Source: a virus. Taken from it: a DNA stretch of 36,332 nt. The notes below the pieces were generated by a model that was given only the letters and a program-made list of their open reading frames with translations, searched no databases and was not told the origin of the DNA. This document shows, piece by piece, positions 2,864 to 36,332 of this stretch; within the stretch, counting starts at the first letter, position 1; every line of letters begins with the position of its first letter. The stretch lies in the IMG/VR virus record IMGVR_UViG_3300037502_000652, positions 1 to 36,332 of that record; one strand, given 5' to 3'. The translations under genes were made by a program, and so were the position numbers.

Positions 2864-3652
2864 TTACCTAACCCTTTTCTCACGATACGCTGCCATAATT
2901 TCATCTTGCATCGCATCATATCGATCAGGATCTGTTGACATGAGTTTCATAATGTCTGAGCGCCGATAGATCTTCTTAGAAGGTGCCTCGTCACTGCCAG
3001 AAGCAACGGTGGTAGTCGCAGCCTTGATCGTCTTGCTACGCGCCTCTTTCTCTGCCGCTACTGTCTGCTGTACTGTGCCTCTGCGTTCTTTGTAGGAACT
3101 AAGAAGTTCAGATGCCGCATCATAGTCGTAGCGTTGGTCTGCTCTCAAAAACAACTCTTGCCTAACCTTGGATGACATCACCCACTGTTGGAACCCAGGA
3201 TCAGTAACAACTTGCTGATAGTCTGGGTGTGCTGCCTGTAGAGCATTCAGAGCCTTGGCTCGTTGCATCTCAAGAGTAAGTGCTTCCGCTTCTTTAATCT
3301 TGGGATGATTCTCAATTGCGATTCCTACCGCCTTCTCTGGATCAGCAAAGAAGTCTACTTGTTCAGTAGTTTCGGTTCTCAGTTGCTGTTTTGTTGTGGC
3401 TTGGGTGCGAATGTAATCGTCAACCAGTTTGCGTAGTTCTCCAACCTCGCTGCCCTGTCGGCCTATTAACCTCTCAGCCTCCATGTGCATCTTGGCAATG
3501 TCTTTGGCACTCTTACCCCGATACTTCTCAGGGAGTTCCTCTTCCGTTTGCTCTTGACTCTGGGCTTCTACCTCAGATGTCAATTCAGCAGGATCTACTA
3601 CAACTTCACTAGTTTGCGCTTCTTCTGCGCCTTCCTCAATAAAAGCAGCCAT
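2864..3652 (-). CDS. Scaffolding / capsid assembly protein
   Basis: A 262-residue, highly charged protein just upstream of the capsid gene. It begins with an acidic, Glu/Gln-rich segment (1-40), then LPEKYRGKSAKDIAKMHMEA (about 40-59) leading into a coiled-coil region. A long helical middle follows, with a basic C-terminus ending YREKRVR. This matches T7 gp9-like scaffold proteins: acidic disordered start, helical body, basic capsid-binding tail. It guides procapsid assembly and leaves before maturation. Assignment rests on pattern and gene order. Confidence 0.85.
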   Translation of the reverse strand: MAAFIEEGAEEAQTSEVVVDPAELTSEVEAQSQEQTEEELPEKYRGKSAKDIAKMHMEAERLIGRQGSEVGELRKLVDDYIRTQATTKQQLRTETTEQVDFFADPEKAVGIAIENHPKIKEAEALTLEMQRAKALNALQAAHPDYQQVVTDPGFQQWVMSSKVRQELFLRADQRYDYDAASELLSSYKERRGTVQQTVAAEKEARSKTIKAATTTVASGSDEAPSKKIYRRSDIMKLMSTDPDRYDAMQDEIMAAYREKRVR

Positions 3653-4229: not shown

Positions 4230-6200
4230 TTAACTTTGCCGTGATGCGACCACTTGCAGGTTAGCAATCTCTTTGCGAGTGTCTATATCTTTCTCTTTTA
4301 GAGCCAGATTGGCTACTTTGACACGCCTCTCAAAGTCATCGGTGGCGTTGGGGCCGGTTCCGAGGTACTTTGATGCTGAAGCGGCGATGCTGGCCTGTAA
4401 TTCGGCAGGCATCAGTTGTGTCTCAGTGGCTTCTTTCTGTGCTTTAGCCTGTTTTAGCGTCACATCTGCCTCAAGGTCAGCCATTTCCAGTTGCGCTTTC
4501 TGAAGTTGCATCTGCATTGCCATCTGTTGCATCTGCTGCTGCTCTGGGTTAGGCTGAGTCATCTGTGCCATCTGCTGCAACAAGGCTTCACGGTTAGACA
4601 AACCACTGTTTTCAATGATTGCAGACATCACCATCGGCACAATTGGACTATCTGGACCCAAGGTTTTCAGCAGATTCATAAACTGCATCTGTTCGTACTC
4701 TCGTGCCACGATGCCAAGGTTGCTGGTAGGCACAAAGATGAAGTCTTGGGCAGGGTAGCGGTCAGGATCAAACTGCATAAAGCGGTAGGCAGACTTGGTC
4801 ACAAACGGGATCAAGAACTGCTCTTGGAAGTTGACCAGTGTACGCTTGTTTTTCTTGATGATTGCCGACAAGGCAGGATTAAGGCCACCACCATCAGCCG
4901 TAGGAGTGGTGCTATCGATGGTAGATGTTGCCATCAACATCATCTTCATGAACTCACCAGCGGTCTGTAGATTGCCAGGATCGGTGACACCAAACTTAAA
5001 CGGTTGCAAAACCTCGTTAGGATTGCCGTTAGTGAGGATGGTCTTGCCTGGACGGATCTCAAACTTGGCACCACGGGGCAGGCGAGTGGCATCAATGCCC
5101 ATCATCGGCACTGTGGTCAGTGCAAGGCTGTCCAAATGAGCACGAATCTGTGCATCAATAGCCTTTTGCATATTGTAGCCCTTCTCAGCGATACCACGAC
5201 CCCAGAAACGACCAGGCATGGAATCATATTGGAAGGCCACAATAGGCCGATCTTTCATCATAAACGGTGACTCTTCTGCCTTGAGCAGGTGTTCATCGTT
5301 TGCGATCACCACAATTGCCTCTACCAGATCAGTGTAGGTAGCGGCTTCTGTGCCAAACTCATCAGTTTTTTCATTAAAAAGGCTAGTAATCTGCTCTTCA
5401 TTCTCAGCATCAAGCAGATAACGAGGTAAAAGACCGTAGTAACGCAGTAACTTTACTTTGTCTTGCTGATACTCAATCTCTTCCTGCACAGGCTCTAGAT
5501 CTGTGTCAACAGCGGTGGGGGCAATGTTGTCTACTTTGCGATAGACACCAGACTCCATACCAGCCACAACGCTGTGAATGCTGACATACTCTTCGATTGC
5601 ACAGCCCATCGCCTCTTCTACAGAGGTAGCAACAGGGTCAATCAAGAAGTTTTTAGGATTAACTGGCTTTAGCCCAACATAGAATCGGTTACGTTCTTCT
5701 ACGCCAACAGCGGTGACACCCATCTCTGCGATTGGTCGCATTGCTGGAGCACGTTCTGTCTTCTCGGACACCACAATCTCACCGATACCAGTGCCGTAGA
5801 CAGCGCCAAGCAGGATCACATCACTGGTGGCTTTGCGGATCTTGGTGCGCTTAAAGTCCTCAGTCATCTGATTCTTGACTTGTTCGACATCGATGCGCTG
5901 CTGATCTAACTGGTCATCAACGATGTCAAAGAACTTCTCACCACGACCAAAGACTGCCTCTTCAATCTCAGCAACAGAGGACTCAATTGCTTGCTGTAGT
6001 GCAGGTGTTACAATCCGTGATCTTTCGCTTTCACGGTGTACATCCTCACCAGCCCAGATGCCACGCCATAGGCGCTCATAGGAGTCCCAATAGTCTAGGT
6101 AGTTCTCATCACGATGGTTGCGCCAGTTCTCACAGCGGGATAGAACCCACTCAGAAATCTTTTTACCGGGGCCACCAAGTTCGTAATCTTTATCTTCCAT
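4230..6200 (-). CDS. Portal (head-tail connector) protein
   Basis: A 656-residue protein between the terminase and the scaffold/capsid genes. The N-terminus holds SERSRIVTPALQQAIESSVA (about 60-79), a segment common in podovirus portals. A central region of about 300-420 has PFMMKDRPIVAFQYDSMPGR and then WGRGIAEKGYNMQKAIDAQI. The C-terminus (about 535-600) is Gln/Met-rich and helical, as expected for the barrel. The ring forms the DNA channel for packaging and ejection and binds the large terminase and adaptor. Length is close to P22-like and other large portals and longer than T7 gp8 (536). Confidence 0.87.
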   Translation of the reverse strand: MEDKDYELGGPGKKISEWVLSRCENWRNHRDENYLDYWDSYERLWRGIWAGEDVHRESERSRIVTPALQQAIESSVAEIEEAVFGRGEKFFDIVDDQLDQQRIDVEQVKNQMTEDFKRTKIRKATSDVILLGAVYGTGIGEIVVSEKTERAPAMRPIAEMGVTAVGVEERNRFYVGLKPVNPKNFLIDPVATSVEEAMGCAIEEYVSIHSVVAGMESGVYRKVDNIAPTAVDTDLEPVQEEIEYQQDKVKLLRYYGLLPRYLLDAENEEQITSLFNEKTDEFGTEAATYTDLVEAIVVIANDEHLLKAEESPFMMKDRPIVAFQYDSMPGRFWGRGIAEKGYNMQKAIDAQIRAHLDSLALTTVPMMGIDATRLPRGAKFEIRPGKTILTNGNPNEVLQPFKFGVTDPGNLQTAGEFMKMMLMATSTIDSTTPTADGGGLNPALSAIIKKNKRTLVNFQEQFLIPFVTKSAYRFMQFDPDRYPAQDFIFVPTSNLGIVAREYEQMQFMNLLKTLGPDSPIVPMVMSAIIENSGLSNREALLQQMAQMTQPNPEQQQMQQMAMQMQLQKAQLEMADLEADVTLKQAKAQKEATETQLMPAELQASIAASASKYLGTGPNATDDFERRVKVANLALKEKDIDTRKEIANLQVVASRQS

Positions 6201-6511: not shown

Positions 6512-7768
6512 TTAGTAACCGGCTACAGCGTCCATTGGTGTAAAGTCTTCGTCATCAAACTCTTGCACATACTCTGCTACTGCGATCTGGTCGATGTAGG
6601 ACAAGGCATCAATTAAGTCATCATGAACTTGCGGATTAGGGAAGTTCAGTAACTCATCAATTATTTCTTTATTCCAAGTGCCTTCATTAAAGACGATTTT
6701 GCCGTGCTCAAAGCGGCCTTGAAGCGACCAAGTAATTCTGTCAGTTTTCTTTTTATTTCCATGAGTAAGATCCTCTATTCTGAAGTAGGTGTTATAGCGC
6801 CTCATTAAGTCACTGAGGTACGGCAATACAGCATTCTTTAGTGCACCTCTTTCGATACCAACACACACAGGCTCATAGTCTCTGACTACATTAAAGATCT
6901 TCTGTGCGGTTTCTTTGATGTCCCACCGACCAAACTCCACATCCTTCACATACCAGCCATTAGCAGTAATCTTGACTATCGCTATGGCAGACTGGTCTAG
7001 TCTCTTTTTCTTTGCTGTGGTGGCTGAGGCAACATTCTCAAAGCCAGCCAAGTCCACAGCGATGAAATATCTACCATCGGTGGGTTCTTCATCATCAATC
7101 TTTATCCACTCTTCTTTGAAGATGCCACCAGAGGCTGCTTCAAAGGAGGCCATAAATTCCTGTCTAAATGCAAAACTAGACATTGACTTCCGTGCTGCTT
7201 CAATTTCTTTCGGATCTAGCAGTTCGTTGTCAAAACTAGTAAAATGCCAAGACTTAAATTCTAAATCTTTTCCTGTGTTGCCGTAAGTAAATAACTCGTA
7301 AAAATGATTACGACCAAAAGGAGTGCCGATAAATAGTGCCGAGCCTTTTTGGTCTGCTAAAGCAGGTCTAATAATTTGTTCCCAGACCTCAGGCTTCATT
7401 GAGCCATACTCATCCAACACAACATACTTTAGGCTTACGCCTCGCATTGTTTCTGGTCTATCTGCTCCCTTTAGAGAGATGGTAGCGCCATTAACAAGTC
7501 GAATCTGCATATTGTTTACATGGCTTGATTCTATAACTGGATTACCTAGTTCCAAAAGAACTTGCCACAAAACATCTCGTGCCTGGCCTTGCGTATTAGC
7601 AATGTACCAAACATGGCCTTTGTCACACTGTAAGGCGTTGATAATCAGCAACCAAGCAGCGAGTCTTGACTTTCCTGTTCTTCGACCTGCCGCAACAACT
7701 TTAAAGCGAGTAGAATCAGAAAATACTTCTTGTTGCCACTTCAGTAGCCTAACGTTTAACTCAGCCAT
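6512..7768 (-). CDS. terL: Terminase large subunit
   Basis: A 418-residue packaging motor ATPase/nuclease. The Walker A motif is AAGRRTGKS (26-34), and Walker B is YVVLDEYG with D119 and E120. The nuclease domain begins near AVDLAGF (about 236) and ends with the acidic HDDLIDALSY (about 388-397), a typical RNase H-fold metal site. The protein docks on the portal and cuts and translocates concatemeric DNA. It overlaps the upstream HNH gene by 8 bases. All catalytic motifs are present, so it should be active. Confidence 0.95.
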   Translation of the reverse strand: MAELNVRLLKWQQEVFSDSTRFKVVAAGRRTGKSRLAAWLLIINALQCDKGHVWYIANTQGQARDVLWQVLLELGNPVIESSHVNNMQIRLVNGATISLKGADRPETMRGVSLKYVVLDEYGSMKPEVWEQIIRPALADQKGSALFIGTPFGRNHFYELFTYGNTGKDLEFKSWHFTSFDNELLDPKEIEAARKSMSSFAFRQEFMASFEAASGGIFKEEWIKIDDEEPTDGRYFIAVDLAGFENVASATTAKKKRLDQSAIAIVKITANGWYVKDVEFGRWDIKETAQKIFNVVRDYEPVCVGIERGALKNAVLPYLSDLMRRYNTYFRIEDLTHGNKKKTDRITWSLQGRFEHGKIVFNEGTWNKEIIDELLNFPNPQVHDDLIDALSYIDQIAVAEYVQEFDDEDFTPMDAVAGY

Positions 7769-8162
7769 GCAGCCTTATGTATCTTCCTGCTGCATCGCAA
7801 AAGTCAGCATTATCCTGTAGCAATCCTATTGCTTGATTACATTTTTTACACAGCAAGCCACGAATTACATTTGTTTTGTGGTTATGGTCTACACACAATC
7901 TAGAGTTCTCTGCGTGTTTCTCATGAATACCACAGATACCGCATTTGTGGTTTTGCTCTTCCAGCATATTCTCATAATCTTGTTGAGTTATGCCGTACTT
8001 ATATTCTAAATGTTTATCACGATAGTAAGAGGCCATCTCCTTTTTGACGGCAGATTGGCATTCTTTACACCGTGTCTGATACCCAGATTTAGATCTAGTA
8101 TCAGCAGAAAAGTCAAAAATACTCTTTTCTTCTTTGCACAGATTACAGACTTTAGTTGTCAT
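7761..8162 (-). CDS. Endonuclease VII-type HNH nuclease (packaging-linked copy)
   Basis: A 133-residue protein with two parts. An N-terminal zinc-binding segment has CNLC and CKEC pairs (about 6-36). A recombination endonuclease VII domain (about 56-125) has YGITQQDYENMLEEQ, CGIC, CVDHNHKT and the closing CKKC. The DHNH is the metal/active-site core. It overlaps the small-terminase candidate by 4 bases and TerL by 8. HNH proteins next to terminase genes assist genome cutting in some phages; the same family also includes mobile freestanding nucleases. A related copy is at 32728-33138. Confidence 0.88.
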   Translation of the reverse strand: MTTKVCNLCKEEKSIFDFSADTRSKSGYQTRCKECQSAVKKEMASYYRDKHLEYKYGITQQDYENMLEEQNHKCGICGIHEKHAENSRLCVDHNHKTNVIRGLLCKKCNQAIGLLQDNADFCDAAGRYIRLHG

Positions 8163-8608
8163 TTATAATCAACATCCTCTGCGTCTATGGTCTGATCTGC
8201 TTCAACCTTGGCATCGCCGATGCCACTAATATTAATCGTAATACCAGCCTTACCGTGCCCTGTTCCTGCTTTCTCAAAGTAAGACAACGGTAACAGTCTA
8301 TCCGCACACATCTTGAGCATTGCTGCCTGATCCTTATCGGTAGGATCTAAGGCTTTCTTAATGATGGTCTCAATGATTGTGTCACCCTTGGTAGTCAGCA
8401 GGCGAGCATGGAATTCTCGTATCCTTGCTGCCTCGCCAGGAGGCCTACCACGGAGATCTCGTTTCTTCTTTGCCTCGATGGCAGTCTTTTTAGGACGACC
8501 AGCACCTCTGGGATTCTTAGTCGGCACAGGTACAGCAACTTGTGCAGGCGAAGATAACACATCGGGGGAAGAAGACACAAGAACCATATCTTGGTCTTTT
8601 GTTTCCAA
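8159..8608 (-). CDS. AT-hook DNA-binding protein, candidate terminase small subunit
   Basis: A 149-residue protein, first gene of the late arm and immediately upstream of the HNH/TerL pair. It has two AT-hook-like motifs (GAGRPKK about 35-41; LRGRPPG about 52-58). A helical region follows with TDKDQAAMLKMCADRLLPLS, then a C-terminal segment (GKAGITINISG). This middle-to-end pattern is common in proteins annotated as small terminases. The start is TTG at 8608, chosen because AGGA on the coding strand lies 9 bases upstream; the in-frame ATG at 8587 has no good site. DNA binding is a strong inference; the terminase role follows from position. Confidence 0.72.
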   Translation of the reverse strand: METKDQDMVLVSSSPDVLSSPAQVAVPVPTKNPRGAGRPKKTAIEAKKKRDLRGRPPGEAARIREFHARLLTTKGDTIIETIIKKALDPTDKDQAAMLKMCADRLLPLSYFEKAGTGHGKAGITINISGIGDAKVEADQTIDAEDVDYK

Positions 8609-8727: not shown

Positions 8728-8756
8728 ATTATAGCACATTTTTACTAATTTGTCAA
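8728..8756 (-). promoter_or_regulatory. Perfect sigma70 promoter for the late arm
   Basis: On the minus strand TTGACA (8756-8751), a 17-base spacer and TATAAT (8733-8728) with TGC extended -10 match consensus fully. The expected start near 8721 gives a leader of about 113 bases before the TTG start at 8608. The leader contains one GTGCAC (8632-8637) and another lies just upstream of the -35 (8772-8777), well placed for control by a dimeric regulator. Confidence 0.88.
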
Positions 8757-8944
8757 GTTCTTTTTATTCTAGTGCACAGAATCAGTGTTATCTCTGCCTG
8801 CTCTGGCCTATCGCAGTGCACATTTTCCATTGCTGATTTTCTTGACAAATAGTGTAGTCATTACACTTGACTGTAAAGCATTGATTTAATTGACTTTATT
8901 GCTTATTGCCAATGCATTTGCATTAGCGTCTATTTTGCTCTTTT

Positions 8945-8986: not shown

Positions 8987-9031
8987 CCCCATCCCCCCGG
9001 CTATGTTAGTTAGTGCTTACTTCGCTGACTG

Positions 9032-9290
9032 TGTTGTTTCTACACCACAGTGTTGTATTGGCACAACAGTGTTGTATACAAGAGACAGTGTTGTATCGGC
9101 GCAACATATGAGGCAGTGTTGCACCACTATAGTGCACCATTGATTTTATGCACCAAGATAGTGCACCTCAGATTTCATGCACCAAAGTAGTGCACTGTTG
9201 TTTTTATGCAACACTCTGACTGTGTTGTATTTATGCAACATAGCAATTCCTGTGCCATATTGCAACGCACAATGTTGTTTTCATACAACA
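9032..9290. repeat. Iteron-like array of TGTTG-N8-CAACA dyads
   Basis: Perfect 18-bp dyads start at 9051, 9089, 9196, 9223 and 9273. Imperfect ones start at 9032 (one mismatch) and 9070 (two); diverged ones start at 9138 and 9167, and a half site at 9117. The first four start exactly 19 bp apart (9032, 9051, 9070, 9089). The sites at 9138, 9167 and 9196 are embedded in a 29-bp tandem repeat, each unit beginning AGTGCAC (9131, 9160, 9189). Such arrays bind initiators at origins or repressors at operators; which applies here is not shown. Confidence 0.85.
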
Positions 9291-9401
9291 ATGGCTTGTG
9301 GCTGTCTCTAAGGGTTTTCCCTATCGACTATGTCGCAGTGCACCAAGTTAATAAAATCAAGCACTTAAATAACCCCAGGATTTTTCTGGTATGTTTCTCT
9401 C

Positions 9402-9454: not shown

Positions 9455-9904
9455 ATGCGGATTAAAAGCGATTCTAGGGGCTGTGAGCGTTTTGCAGGCG
9501 AAGATAATGATTGCACTGTCCGTGCTCTCGCTAACGCCTTGGGGATGCCTTATAAACTGGCGCATGGCATTCTTGCTAAAGCAGGCAGGAAACCTAAACA
9601 TGGAATGGTTGTTAGCGATTGGCAACCTGTTTATGAGCGTTTAGGCTTAAAACTGCAATCCGTGCACGGCAGCACTAAAGGTGCTCGCTTCGTGTCTCAT
9701 AAATACAACATCGAACGGCAGCAGGGGATTACACTTGAAAAATTGCTGCCAAGACTGCAGCAGGGCCGCTATGTAATCAAAATCAGGGGCCATGTATTGG
9801 CAGTAGTAGACGGCAAAGTGTTGGATTATGGCAACAATCCAGCAGGCTGCAGGGTTGCAGCAGTTTACAAGTTAGAGCGGCAGGCAGTAATATTTGATCT
9901 ATAA
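9455..9904 (+). CDS. Putative papain-like cysteine protease, first early gene
   Basis: A 149-residue protein. The ATG at 9455 is chosen because AGGAG lies 8-9 bases upstream; the frame is open back to 9206, but that part has no ribosome site and overlaps the repeat array. Residues NDCTVRALANALG place C20 at the start of a helix, as in papain-like and NlpC/P60-type folds. Later YVIKIRGHVLAVVDGKVLDYG gives H113 on a strand and D119/D124 on the next, a plausible Cys-His-Asp triad. As the first gene of the early arm it could act on a host protein at infection. Fold and triad are inferred from motif order; the substrate is unknown. Confidence 0.62.
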   Translation: MRIKSDSRGCERFAGEDNDCTVRALANALGMPYKLAHGILAKAGRKPKHGMVVSDWQPVYERLGLKLQSVHGSTKGARFVSHKYNIERQQGITLEKLLPRLQQGRYVIKIRGHVLAVVDGKVLDYGNNPAGCRVAAVYKLERQAVIFDL

Positions 9905-11444: not shown

Positions 11445-11592
11445 CCCTGATCGGGAATACATTGAATCTGTGAAAACAGATGTAATGAAAACATGGCGCA
11501 GATTTGGGTTTGTGCCGCCATCAGAATTGAAAGAAAAACAAGACAAAGAAGGGACACCACAATGCGATGCCGTGCCTGCAACGAAATCCTGA
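11425..11592 (+). CDS. 55-residue protein, unknown
   Basis: The ATG at 11425 follows AAGGAAAAAG; the frame is open further upstream but in the preceding gene. The peptide has a MAWLLDNPDREYIESVKTDV start and ends CDAVPATKS. It overlaps the following zinc-finger gene by about 30 bases. No family is recognised. Confidence 0.52.
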   Translation: MAWLLDNPDREYIESVKTDVMKTWRRFGFVPPSELKEKQDKEGTPQCDAVPATKS

Positions 11593-11813
11593 CAGATTAT
11601 GAATCATCGGTTCGCAGTGTATTCAGCCGAGAATATGTGTCATTGTGTAAATGGTGCTTGGGAACGATTAAAACCGACTGTGTTGCCATCGGTAACATCA
11701 ACCTGATGTCCGACCTAGACGACATCGCCGAAGCCGACAGAGAGGCTGAAAAAGGCCTTGATGACGATTTCCCTGATGATGACTATTATATGGACATCAG
11801 AAACGATCGCTGA
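11562..11813 (+). CDS. Small zinc-finger protein
   Basis: An 83-residue protein starting MRCRACNEIL, with CxxC at 3-6 and a second CKWC at about 28-31, a classical four-Cys zinc site. Its tail is very acidic (GLDDDFPDDDYYMD). Proteins with this start and tail are widespread in phages of several types. The ATG at 11562 is chosen because AAGAAGGGA lies upstream and translation before it would be out of pattern. Zinc binding is inferred; the role may be regulatory. Confidence 0.7.
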   Translation: MRCRACNEILTDYESSVRSVFSREYVSLCKWCLGTIKTDCVAIGNINLMSDLDDIAEADREAEKGLDDDFPDDDYYMDIRNDR

Positions 11814-11830
11814 TGATGTTGGCACGATTC

Positions 11831-11860
11831 TTGCTAATATTATCTATATTACTCTATAAA
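11831..11860 (+). promoter_or_regulatory. Candidate sigma70 promoter before the replication genes
   Basis: TTGCTA (11831-11836), an 18-base spacer and TATAAA (11855-11860) lie in the AT-rich 125-base gap before the 78-residue gene. Matches are 4 of 6 and 5 of 6. It would drive the primase-helicase gene and those after it. Confidence 0.5.
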
Positions 11861-11938: not shown

Positions 11939-12175
11939 ATGCAGCCGTGGGAAACTGAGCAAATGTATTTCTCAACAGTCCATGATATTGCTGAATTGTT
12001 AGTCAGTTATAATGTGGACACCGAAACGATGATTTCAGATGTGTTGGATTGTGTCCTCCGTGTCCGGCCTGAAAGCCGACAGGCATTCCAACTACTGGGT
12101 ATTCTTGACTATTTTACTCAACTAAAGGACTATGACGATGCAAACGACATCGCAAAACAAATTCTTGAGGCATGA
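11939..12175 (+). CDS. 78-residue protein upstream of primase-helicase
   Basis: An acidic, mostly helical protein with a strong AAAGAAAGGTGG ribosome site. It overlaps the primase-helicase start by 38 bases, so the downstream ribosome site is inside its coding sequence. No family is recognised; context suggests a replication-linked role. Confidence 0.65.
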   Translation: MQPWETEQMYFSTVHDIAELLVSYNVDTETMISDVLDCVLRVRPESRQAFQLLGILDYFTQLKDYDDANDIAKQILEA

Positions 12176-13757
12176 GGCCTGCGACAAATGCGGCAGTAGC
12201 GATGCCAAAGCCGTGTATTCCGATGGCTCTGGCTACTGTTTCAATTGTAAGACCTATTTTAAGGCCTCTGATGGCCTTGTTGCCTCAACTGAGGGGAAGG
12301 TATTACCCATGACCAACAAAGCCGTTGTAGGCCAAATTAGGCCCATTAGCGGGGATTTCCTGAGCATACCTGATCGTGGTATCACCAAAGCCACCTGTGA
12401 GGCCTATGGTGTCAGGCAATCAGGGACAGAACATTATTATCCTTACACTGATGCCAGTGGCAAAGACATCGCACACAAGATCAGAGTAGTGACTGACAAG
12501 TCATTTAGGTCACAAGGCAACATCAAGGATGCAGTCTTGTTCGGACAAGCGATGTGGAACAAAGGCGGCAAATATGTCACCATCGTTGAAGGCGAACTTG
12601 ATGCGCTAGCGGCTTATCAAATGATGGGGTCAAAGTATCCTGTGGTGTCGATCAAGAATGGTGCTCAGTCTGCCGTGAAAGATTGTCAGGCACAGTACGA
12701 ATGGCTTGACAGTTTTGAAAATATCGTGTTAGCATTCGATGCTGATGATCCTGGCAGAGAGGCTGCGGCTGGTGTGGCTGAGTTGTTTGGCAGCAAGGTC
12801 AAGATCGTCAAGATGGGTCAAGGCTATAAGGATGCCTGCGACTATCTTAGTGATAACAAATCTGCTGACTTTGTGAAAACCTGGTGGGCAGCGGAGCAGT
12901 TTGTGCCGGATGGAATTGTCGCTGGCGCTGACCTGCTGGAACTGGTGATGCAGCCGCTACCAAAGGCACAGGCACACTATCCTTATGTGGGCCTAAATAG
13001 CGTCACTGGTGGCATCAGGTCGCAGGAGATGGTCGTAGTCACTGCTGGCTCTGGCTTAGGCAAGTCGCAATTCATGCGAGAGATCATCTGGCAGTTGTTG
13101 TGCGAGACTCAGGACAACATCGGCATTATGTTCTTGGAAGAGTCAGTGAAAAAGACTGCACTGAGCATCATGTCACTGGCAATCAATAAACCATTACATT
13201 TATCGGAGATAGAGGCAGATGATAGAGAGAAGAGAGAGGCATTTGACAAAACACTCGGATCTGATAGACTCTATTTTTATGATTGCTTTGGTAGCACTGC
13301 TATCGATAACATTATCAATCGGGTTCGCTACTTTGCTCGTGGGCTTAATTGCCGTTATATTCTCTTAGACCATGTGAGCATTGTGGTTTCTGCTCAGGAT
13401 CATTCCGATGAACGCAAAGCCTTGGATGAGATCATGACTAAACTACGGATGATCGTGCAAGAGACTGGTGTGTCCCTGTTTGTTGTGTCGCACCTGAAAA
13501 GGCCGGATGGCAAAGGCCACGAGGAAGGTGCAGTGACATCCTTGAATCAATTGCGAGGATCTGGTAGCATTGGACAATTGGCAGATATGGTGTTAGGATT
13601 AGAAAGAGCAGCACAGCATGAGGATCCAATTGAGAGGAACACAACCAGAGTGCGAGTGATAAAGAATCGATACAGTGGCGAGACTGGTAAAGCCTGTGCC
13701 GTGCTCTATGATAAGTACACTGGCAGAATGACAGAGATCAATGAGGCCTCATTATGA
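12138..13757 (+). CDS. Bifunctional DNA primase-helicase (T7 gp4-like)
   Basis: A 539-residue protein. The ATG at 12138 is preferred over 12132 because AGGA ends 8 bases before it rather than 2. The N-terminal zinc domain has C15, C18, C34 and C37. The TOPRIM primase core has TIVEGELDALAAYQ and AFDADDPGREAA (about 150-210). The helicase domain has Walker A AGSGLGKS (about 302-309) and Walker B YILLDHVSIVV, then GSIGQLADMVLGLER. It unwinds DNA as a ring and makes primers for the polymerase encoded downstream. Size is close to T7 gp4 (566). It overlaps the next gene by 4 bases. Confidence 0.93.
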   Translation: MQTTSQNKFLRHEACDKCGSSDAKAVYSDGSGYCFNCKTYFKASDGLVASTEGKVLPMTNKAVVGQIRPISGDFLSIPDRGITKATCEAYGVRQSGTEHYYPYTDASGKDIAHKIRVVTDKSFRSQGNIKDAVLFGQAMWNKGGKYVTIVEGELDALAAYQMMGSKYPVVSIKNGAQSAVKDCQAQYEWLDSFENIVLAFDADDPGREAAAGVAELFGSKVKIVKMGQGYKDACDYLSDNKSADFVKTWWAAEQFVPDGIVAGADLLELVMQPLPKAQAHYPYVGLNSVTGGIRSQEMVVVTAGSGLGKSQFMREIIWQLLCETQDNIGIMFLEESVKKTALSIMSLAINKPLHLSEIEADDREKREAFDKTLGSDRLYFYDCFGSTAIDNIINRVRYFARGLNCRYILLDHVSIVVSAQDHSDERKALDEIMTKLRMIVQETGVSLFVVSHLKRPDGKGHEEGAVTSLNQLRGSGSIGQLADMVLGLERAAQHEDPIERNTTRVRVIKNRYSGETGKACAVLYDKYTGRMTEINEASL

Positions 13758-34341: not shown

Positions 34342-36258
34342 TTACGAAATTGCTAAATATAAATAAGTGCCGGTATTGACGTTGGCGTTGTTTGTTGTTT
34401 GGTTTACTGTGAAACTGGTGGAAGAAATATCTACCCAATCCTCGTTTGTAACTTCTGCATCTGCGGTATTAAGTTCAAGGTAAGGATCGTTACCAGCAAC
34501 AAGACCACGAGCAGAGTCACTCACAATCCAATCGCCAGTAGAGTCAGTCCTCTTTACAAGGATGAAGCGAGGTTGGAAGTTTGTGGTTACCGTCACAGAA
34601 GAACCATTGCCTGTGTAAGTCCCGATCTTGCTGACACCGGGGCAGGAGGCGAAGAGGTATGCGACATAAGTGATGCCTGAAGCATTTCTTTGAGACCCAG
34701 AAGAAAGACTAAAAACAGAACTTGTTGGGTTTGTTGTTGTAAATGGATCAGACCAACCAGTATCAACTGCTCCGTTTGTATTTAGAGATAAGATGTTATT
34801 CATTCCAATACTAGGAACACAGGTCAACCAATTATTAAATCCGGTACTTGCTCTATTTTTTGTAATAATCAACTCAGGCGCAACACCTAAGTTATGGCTC
34901 ACCGTTGTTGCTGATCCAGTTCCCGTATAGCAGACCACATCAAAGAAGCCCGGTGCGCGTCTAAACTGTTCATAAACCCAGTCAGCATTGTAGACACCGC
35001 CGCCATTTGTCTTTATGCCATCGTTTTGAGTAAAACTGATAGTTGTATTGTCTGTGGCGGTTGCTTCTGAGTTTGTTGTGTTTGTAGCAATAGATCTAAA
35101 ATTACCCTGCAATCTTGAATATATGTTTCTACCATAACCAGAACCATCGTCTGGCCTAGACAACGCAAGCGCCGCATCAGTAACAAATCCACTTGTATAT
35201 GTTGCAGTAGCGCTTGAACTTCCTAGTCCCGTGCTAAACACACTCGTCCCAGTCGTAGGAGTCTTCATCGGCCCACGGCGAATGGCGATGTAGATGTAAT
35301 CCTTAACCGTAGTATCAAGGCTTTTTAATGTGAATCCAGTTGCTGTTGGGTTGCCAAAATCAAAACTTGAATCTTCTGCGGCACTACTATTAGCGGCTAA
35401 ATATGGATCACCAGATGTGCTGTTTGCCCAACCACGCATACTGTCTAATAGAATCCAACCTCCAGTAGCGTTGGATTTCTTAAACAAAATAAACTGCGGT
35501 TCATACCCAAGCGTTACTGTTGCATCGCCATTGCTATCACTTGTAAACGAACCACAAGTAATCACATTATCAGAGCCAGACGCACCAAAGCCGCCAGCGT
35601 CGTGGGCGAAGAGGTAGGCAACGTAGGTTGCGCCGTTGGCGTTAAAATTACTTCCACTTAACTCAACAGTAAATGTAGTAGACGAAACATTCCATACATT
35701 ACCGCCAAGATCATTTGCAGCATCAGTTTTATTTAAATATGCAACCGTTTGAACTGGGTCTGCAAAACTTCTGTGATATACCTGCCAATCATTACTAGAG
35801 TCTGTTCTTTTTAAGAAAATGCAACCAGGTGTGCTACCAAGATTGTGAGATATTTGTCTTCCTGTAGTTCCATCCCCCGTATACGTCACAACATCAAAGA
35901 ACTTTGCCTGTTTTGCAAATGTCCAAGAGACGTAATTTACTGCGTTATCATTAAAAAGCGCGTCACCAATAGAAAAACCATTGGTATTAAATGCCGTTAA
36001 ACTGTCTGTTTGTGTTGTTTGTGCATCAGTAGCATTAGACATTAAATACTTATTTATGCCCCTAGCAGTATCATATAAAAAATGACTTGCCGCAGCCCTA
36101 GATTTAACCCAAACTAATCCGCCTTTAGTAGACAAATCAATGTTGTTGGTGATGGTTTGTGTAGAGCCGTTGCCTGTGTAAAGGTAGCTCGAAAAAATAT
36201 CTTCGACATAAACAGGAACCGCTGACGGAGCAGCCGATAGTGCTTTATTTGCAAGCAT
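34342..36258 (-). CDS. Modular tail fibre / receptor-binding protein
   Basis: A 638-residue protein built of five related modules, starting near residues 26, 105, 236, 442 and 547. A module begins with a YTGNG- or YTGDG-type strand, then a NLG-x-P-x-FILFKR-like strand with a DW/W-containing segment, and ends in YVAYLFA, YIYIAIR or YLYLAIS (near 89-95, 212-218, 321-327, 531-537, 632-638). The pattern is like DUF7483-type appendage proteins. The next gene is a fibre chaperone. It probably binds the host surface. The first 53 bases also appear at the left window edge. Confidence 0.82.
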   Translation of the reverse strand: MLANKALSAAPSAVPVYVEDIFSSYLYTGNGSTQTITNNIDLSTKGGLVWVKSRAAASHFLYDTARGINKYLMSNATDAQTTQTDSLTAFNTNGFSIGDALFNDNAVNYVSWTFAKQAKFFDVVTYTGDGTTGRQISHNLGSTPGCIFLKRTDSSNDWQVYHRSFADPVQTVAYLNKTDAANDLGGNVWNVSSTTFTVELSGSNFNANGATYVAYLFAHDAGGFGASGSDNVITCGSFTSDSNGDATVTLGYEPQFILFKKSNATGGWILLDSMRGWANSTSGDPYLAANSSAAEDSSFDFGNPTATGFTLKSLDTTVKDYIYIAIRRGPMKTPTTGTSVFSTGLGSSSATATYTSGFVTDAALALSRPDDGSGYGRNIYSRLQGNFRSIATNTTNSEATATDNTTISFTQNDGIKTNGGGVYNADWVYEQFRRAPGFFDVVCYTGTGSATTVSHNLGVAPELIITKNRASTGFNNWLTCVPSIGMNNILSLNTNGAVDTGWSDPFTTTNPTSSVFSLSSGSQRNASGITYVAYLFASCPGVSKIGTYTGNGSSVTVTTNFQPRFILVKRTDSTGDWIVSDSARGLVAGNDPYLELNTADAEVTNEDWVDISSTSFTVNQTTNNANVNTGTYLYLAIS

Positions 36259-36332
36259 GGTTATTCCTTAAGCGTTGCCAACACGAGCGCCATAGACCTG
36301 TGTAGATACCTTCCACAGCACGATTACAGTAT
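36206..36332. repeat. Terminal direct repeat, right copy
   Basis: Identical to 1-127. The true circle ends at 36205; bases after that are a second reading of the start. Confidence 0.95.
36268..36332 (-). CDS. 3' end of 249-residue tail protein (duplicate of 63-127)
   Basis: The last 65 bases of the gene at 63-812, with its TAA stop at 36268-36270, reappear because of the overlap. Not a separate or truncated gene. Confidence 0.92.
   Translation of the reverse strand, partial: TVIVLWKVSTQVYGARVGNA

Follow-up and report, generated by a model that had tools for sequence, protein, structure and literature searches.

NtrC-like boxes, sigma-54-type promoters and IHF-consensus sites at the transcription hinge of an uncultured aquatic phage group: a candidate enhancer region under host control

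Introduction

The dependence of phages on the nutrition of their hosts has mostly been argued from the metabolic genes which phages carry; at the level of promoters, the main case known to us is that of the cyanophage NtcA sites. The apparent use of a host nutrient regulator by cyanophage promoters is already described (NtcA, PMC3037559). In a T7-like phage, a phage-encoded sigma-54-like protein, not promoters, was reported from a weak HHpred match (PMC7693777). No report of NtrC and sigma-54 controlling phage transcription arms or a lytic phage was found in the part of the open-access literature that was searched.

In phage lambda, the O iterons form a tandem of units with dyad symmetry, each about 19 bp long, and cos combines terminase sites with IHF. 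The consensus of the E. coli NtrC box is TGCACCAnnnTGGTGCA (PMC8743547), and that of the IHF site is WATCARNNNNTTR (PMC3897727). Activating sites of QseF at sigma-54 promoters have the geometry TGT-N12-ACA (PMC6075780). The same geometry is found at P2-type late promoters, where the CX2C-X22-CX4C protein Ogr binds to it (PMC3931495), and in PpsR/CrtJ sites, which were also considered in the present work as a possible counterpart of type A, one of the two dyad families described below.

Here, we analysed the IMG/VR virus record IMGVR_UViG_3300037502_000652. The window, i.e. the whole stretch of DNA under analysis, covers its positions 1 to 36,332 (36,332 nucleotides). An earlier reading of the sequence letters, hereafter the original prediction, had pointed at an iteron-like array of about ten related dyads at 9032-9290, at the hinge of the two transcription arms. 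The array and its flanks were scanned for regulatory sites and compared with homologous hinges of related phages.

Results

An exact terminal repeat of 127 bp (36206-36332 identical to 1-127) shows that the record is a circular assembly, complete at 36205 bp. Terminase and structural genes are read leftward, and the genes for primase, PolA, SSB, exonuclease and RNR rightward; the array is situated, as originally placed, between leftward terS/terL and the rightward early genes. The terminase large subunit, TerL (6512-7768, minus strand, phrog_2), served as the query for finding relatives. Among the matches listed, no deposited phage exceeds about 30% identity to it, but IMG/VR contains more than 590 related stretches. 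In the GTDB genomes, scanned in search of a host, the matches were limited to two MAG contigs (about 61%) and a single weak one, and were uninformative. The putative small subunit, TerS (8159-8608, minus strand), was assigned from its place before TerL and has no family match. A perfect sigma-70 promoter, TTGACA-N17-TATAAT, detected by sequence scan at 8728-8756 (minus strand), leads into terS/terL and is kept in most relatives.

On the plus strand, a T7-type DNA primase/helicase (12132-13757, phrog_239, E 9e-180) is preceded by a small CX2C-X22-CX2C protein with an acidic tail (11562-11813), which is present in every lineage examined and gave no match in family searches. Rfam and tRNA searches returned nothing, and the hinge and TerS have no DNA similarity to cultured phages. 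The phage genome encodes no sigma-54 activator (PF00158), so that a partner of this kind would have to come from the host. Scans of early and middle phage proteins matched no family of initiators, repressors or activators, in agreement with the earlier remark that no known initiator or repressor gene is seen.

Motif scanning of 9032-9290 resolved two families of dyads. Type A, TGTTG-N8-CAACA, is represented by five perfect copies (9051-9068, 9089-9106, 9196-9213, 9223-9240 and 9273-9290) and two degenerate ones (9032-9049, TGTTGTTTCTACACCACA, one mismatch; 9070-9087, two mismatches). Type B, TGCAC-N7-GTGCA, occurs in three copies 29 bp apart, all with perfect arms, at 9120-9136 (TGCACCACTATAGTGCA), 9149-9165 (TGCACCAAGATAGTGCA) and 9178-9194 (TGCACCAAAGTAGTGCA); the left part of the first overlaps TGTTGCAC, the best-conserved site of the hinge. 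The five perfect TGTTG dyads and the 19-bp phasing of the first four sites (starts 9032/9051/9070/9089) had thus been read correctly from the letters. The 29-bp period of a further trio holds as well, with the correction that this trio is made of type B dyads, and the count of about ten sites stands, divided between two families instead of one. Binding of all sites by a single dimeric protein, as had been suggested, is unsupported, since the two families occur separately in relatives.

Over the full record, type A matches with up to two mismatches numbered 45, versus a mean of 27 and a maximum of 42 in shuffles. The real signal resides in the perfect matches: of six genome-wide, five fall inside 240 bp, against an expectation of about 0.04; the sixth, at 9819, is intragenic and was left out of the array count. 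Perfect TGTTG dyads at other spacer lengths (3-13) were absent from the region. Furthermore, 25 distinct homologous hinges were searched without guidance for 5+5-bp dyads that recur, and almost all those returned belonged to types A and B. A terminator scanner marks two type B sites as terminator-like; RNA hairpins or terminators were considered for the dyads and rejected, because 5-bp stems and spacers fixed at N7 and N8 across relatives point to dyads bound by protein.

Relatives were aligned on a conserved block, ATGTTAGTTAGTGCTTAC, at the start of the hinge (9003-9020). All near hinges have in common a C-rich run followed by this block (8987-9020), and a C-rich run is also located ahead of type A arrays in some more distant phages. 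Another conserved block, ATGGCTTG at 9291, was tried as a rightward sigma-54 promoter and discarded, as it lacks GG-N10-GC.

Each type B site agrees with 13 of the 14 fixed positions of the E. coli consensus TGCACCAnnnTGGTGCA; all three boxes have A in place of G at the same position. Simulated genomes of equal dinucleotide content gave 0.03 such matches per genome, and the identical scan found the boxes upstream of glnA in E. coli MG1655, which served as the positive control. In 79 loci picked by TerL alone, boxes with at most one mismatch numbered 14 in 68 kb of hinge versus three in 590 kb elsewhere, and the reversed motif was found in neither compartment. Six podovirus records sharing a homologous primase or TerL (MW202722, MW202640, HTVC115P, P12053L, SIO1 and CRP-171) were used as negative controls and contained no box at up to two mismatches.

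A -24/-12 matrix set by hand was used to score sigma-54 elements. The two top scores of the genome, both intergenic and both with GG-N10-GC, belong to an element at 9242-9257 (minus strand; TGGCACAGGAATTGCT, TGGCAC-AGGAA-TTGCT), directed towards terS/terL, and to a perfect-consensus element of maximum score at 11820-11835 (plus strand; TGGCACGATTCTTGCT, TGGCACG-ATTC-TTGCT), upstream of the primase module. The former occupies homologous columns in relatives, and its -12 element adjoins the type A dyad at 9223; the latter begins 6 bp after the end of the small Cys-protein gene. Within the same 79 loci, strict matches were 22 in the 68 kb of hinge versus 16 in the 590 kb elsewhere, with none and one, respectively, for the reversed motif. 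The maximum-score element precedes the primase in all 12 relatives with at least 81% TerL identity and the junction in view, mostly 1-6 bp past the stop codon of the Cys-protein and farther in L007; it is kept among close relatives while flanks and spacer bases vary. In relatives at about 69% TerL identity it is absent.

Exact matches to the IHF consensus are located on both sides of the array, at 8874-8886 (minus strand) and 9355-9367 (plus strand), i.e. flanking it and not between box and promoter as classically. The left site is exact in 21 of the 22 homologous hinges with sequence, its four free bases (N4) varying, a pattern that suggests selection on the site, whereas the right one is exact in ten of 26 distinct hinges. 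IHF matches were also present near type A arrays of several phages with other terminases.

The arrangement of boxes and promoters differs between this genome and its relatives. In several relatives at about 69% TerL identity, a hinge sigma-54 element is located exactly 127 bp after the nearer NtrC box and reads into the early arm, the boxes often being 61 bp apart. In several close relatives, the distance from box to promoter is 104-122 bp and the promoter points towards terS. Boxes upstream of a promoter are accordingly seen in relatives at 104-127 bp, and none was found about 100-150 bp upstream of a promoter in this genome. Here the aligned leftward element is present, but the boxes are on its downstream side: they follow the predicted leftward start by 45-103 bp, and about 2.7 kb separates them from the rightward promoter.

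The search for the dyads in related phages, proposed earlier as a check, revealed that a phased dyad array at the hinge is conserved in kind, its site content varying among close relatives from type A only or type B only to both or almost none. Almost no array sites are present in L073, the closest relative by TerL (94% identity over the part covered). Where type and number of dyads change, L073 included, the IHF site and the sigma-54 elements are retained.

Several further features of related hinges were recorded. In L022 and L073 there is a third kind of dyad-like sequence (TGGTTAATTATTGACCA or close to it), noted by eye twice in L022; it may be the site of another regulator. The hinge of L031 contains three consensus DnaA boxes, TTATCCACA, at +104, +116 and +425 from the anchor, two of them in tandem 12 bp apart. 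In L029, five sigma-54-like elements directed towards TerL are located at about 2914-3106, several of them 25-29 bp apart, together with two in the opposite direction; that region has no NtrC box at up to two mismatches. It should also be added that many related contigs (L006, L008, L011, L018, L021, L024, L025, L033, L046 and L054) stop inside terS, 200-470 bp ahead of the start of TerL (equivalent to 8000-8240); these ends may mark either the point where packaging starts or a break in the assembly.

A scan of the whole IMG/VR for the pattern "NtrC box, 85-115 bp, sigma-54 element" gave 33 matches, and none when the pattern was written backwards. In 24 of the 33, the contig carries genes of this clade, either for the terminase (terL, terS) or for replication, and 15 of these 24 have the spacing of exactly 127 bp. 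Some of the other nine are phages whose terminases are unrelated, and in several of these NtrC boxes or sigma-54 elements are multiple beside terL (L156, L169, L172 and L174; L157 and L165; L168). All of these contigs carry exact NtrC boxes together with multiple sigma-54 elements; in the hinge of L168 about eleven sigma-54 elements are seen, several 17-19 bp apart.

Discussion

We regard the hinge, with a probability of roughly 0.74, as an enhancer region, bracketed by IHF sites, by which NtrC and sigma-54 RNA polymerase of the host would control phage transcription. The sequences and positions of the sites, their conservation and their specificity to the clade are matters of direct observation. 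From these we infer binding by NtrC, sigma-54 and IHF, and activation rather than repression. The original prediction named no partner protein, which still holds for type A, whereas for type B host NtrC acting with sigma-54 is a specific candidate.

Under this reading, phosphorylated NtrC would load on the type B sites upon nitrogen limitation, possibly induced by the infection itself, and IHF would bend the flanks so that activators bound at the array could contact the polymerase. The activator would then act on sigma-54 RNA polymerase, remodelling it at the leftward element of the hinge, at 9242, and, by looping across about 2.7 kb, also at 11820, thus feeding the replication genes; such looping is proposed because no enhancer dyad was seen nearer to 11820 than the hinge array. 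The sigma-70 promoter at 8756-8728 would provide transcription of the terminase arm independent of NtrC, with activation by NtrC added on top.

The geometry of the boxes is the main weakness of the NtrC model for this phage genome itself. Enhancers can work from other distances, so that the geometry lowers the claim for this genome without excluding it.

The original prediction had offered replication iterons or a repressor array. As iterons, the dyads would be bound cooperatively by an unrecognised phage or host initiator, which would open the hinge DNA. The 19-bp tandem of type A does resemble iterons of the lambda O type, IHF sites occur at origins too, and the genome has a T7-type replisome without a T7 RNA polymerase. 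The cumulative GC skew reaches its minimum at the hinge, but gene orientation alone accounts for the skew; likewise, the DnaA boxes of L031 would suit an origin, yet they are confined to one lineage. Moreover, no initiator family was found among the proteins scanned, site type and number change between close relatives, even with respect to L073, and type B dyads match NtrC boxes tied to sigma-54 promoters at a fixed distance. Iterons are therefore unsupported, and we consider an origin at the array unlikely.

The type A family calls for separate consideration. Pooled sites correspond roughly to TGTTGTATWWATACAACA, that is to TGT-N12-ACA, with spacing peaks at 19, 28 and 30 bp. Relatives with type A only (L014, L017, L107, L135 and L139) keep the perfect sigma-54 promoter, which favours an activator for this family. 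The geometry fits that of QseF-type sites, although some type A arrays have no visible sigma-54 element: none was found near those of L126, L092, L142, L129 and L130 in the stretches covered. L126 has a second type A array (5360-5434) at the junction of Cys-protein and primase, where this genome has its sigma-54 promoter. Type A dyads are thus probably sites of a second transcription regulator. That it might be another sigma-54 activator is only a guess by analogy, made from the QseF/GlrR-like geometry and the sigma-54 promoter of type-A-only relatives.

The regulator could instead be encoded by the phage, the array being an operator for a repressor or an Ogr-like activator of both arms, such as the Cys-protein at 11562-11813, with the likeness to NtrC and sigma-54 sites coincidental or secondary. 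Type A has the geometry of the dyad bound by Ogr at P2 late promoters (PMC3931495), the small Cys-protein accompanies type A arrays in phages of several lineages, and in L126 such sites also stand at the junction before the primase. Against this, the Cys-protein is equally found in phages with only type B or with neither site, has no family match, and differs from the Ogr-type CX2C-X22-CX4C arrangement in its last cysteine spacing, X2 and not X4. An operator array would also leave the NtrC boxes, the sigma-54 elements and the 127-bp spacing unexplained, and we hold it to be as improbable as the origin.

Least probable is a role in packaging, the hinge being a pac site, or a cos site with IHF, that the terminase small subunit recognises. 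Although the hinge is upstream of terS in relatives, lambda cos joins terminase sites with IHF and many related contigs end inside terS, these ends cluster in terS and not in the array, the TerS candidate matches no DNA-binding family, and type A arrays recur with unrelated terminase in L129 and L130.

Control by host NtrC and sigma-54, if true, suggests that an abundant uncultured aquatic phage group ties its gene expression to the nitrogen state of the host, through a promoter grammar of NtrC boxes, sigma-54 elements and IHF sites conserved at defined spacing. Infection should then need rpoN and ntrC and respond to nitrogen supply. Hosts would have to carry sigma-54, NtrC and IHF, which offers a filter for host identification. 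The phages with unrelated terminases and similar sites possibly represent convergent use of host sigma-54. It seems to us an even chance that several unrelated lineages have independently placed terminase-side control under host NtrC and sigma-54, with host nitrogen gating or timing the infection; such convergence, if true, would be a widespread and undescribed mode of phage regulation in waters.

Among known systems, the lambda O iterons differ from the hinge in having an O-like initiator; none was recognised among the proteins scanned here, and the hinge contains two site families and varies in composition between relatives. P2-type late promoters (Ogr/Delta) share with this phage the TGT-N12-ACA dyad and a small Cys4 protein (PMC3931495); unlike the hinge, they are not arrays, their protein is of other cysteine spacing and family, and NtrC boxes and sigma-54 elements are absent. 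The E. coli glmY promoter activated by QseF (GlrR) combines several activating TGTN12ACA sites, IHF and a sigma-54 promoter (PMC6075780); type A has this geometry but differs in its inner bases (TTG/CAA) and its tight 19-bp tandem spacing. The glnA-type enhancer and promoter of E. coli resemble the hinge in multiple NtrC boxes of the same consensus and a -24/-12 promoter; in contrast to glnA, the phage has no activator of its own, its boxes are 29 bp apart and not upstream, and a second dyad family is present. Cyanophage promoters with NtcA sites and Pho boxes are similar in the apparent use of a host nutrient-stress regulator (PMC3037559), but NtcA belongs to another, cyanobacterial, regulator family, while the hinge described here would represent a multi-site NtrC/sigma-54 enhancer on the terminase side.
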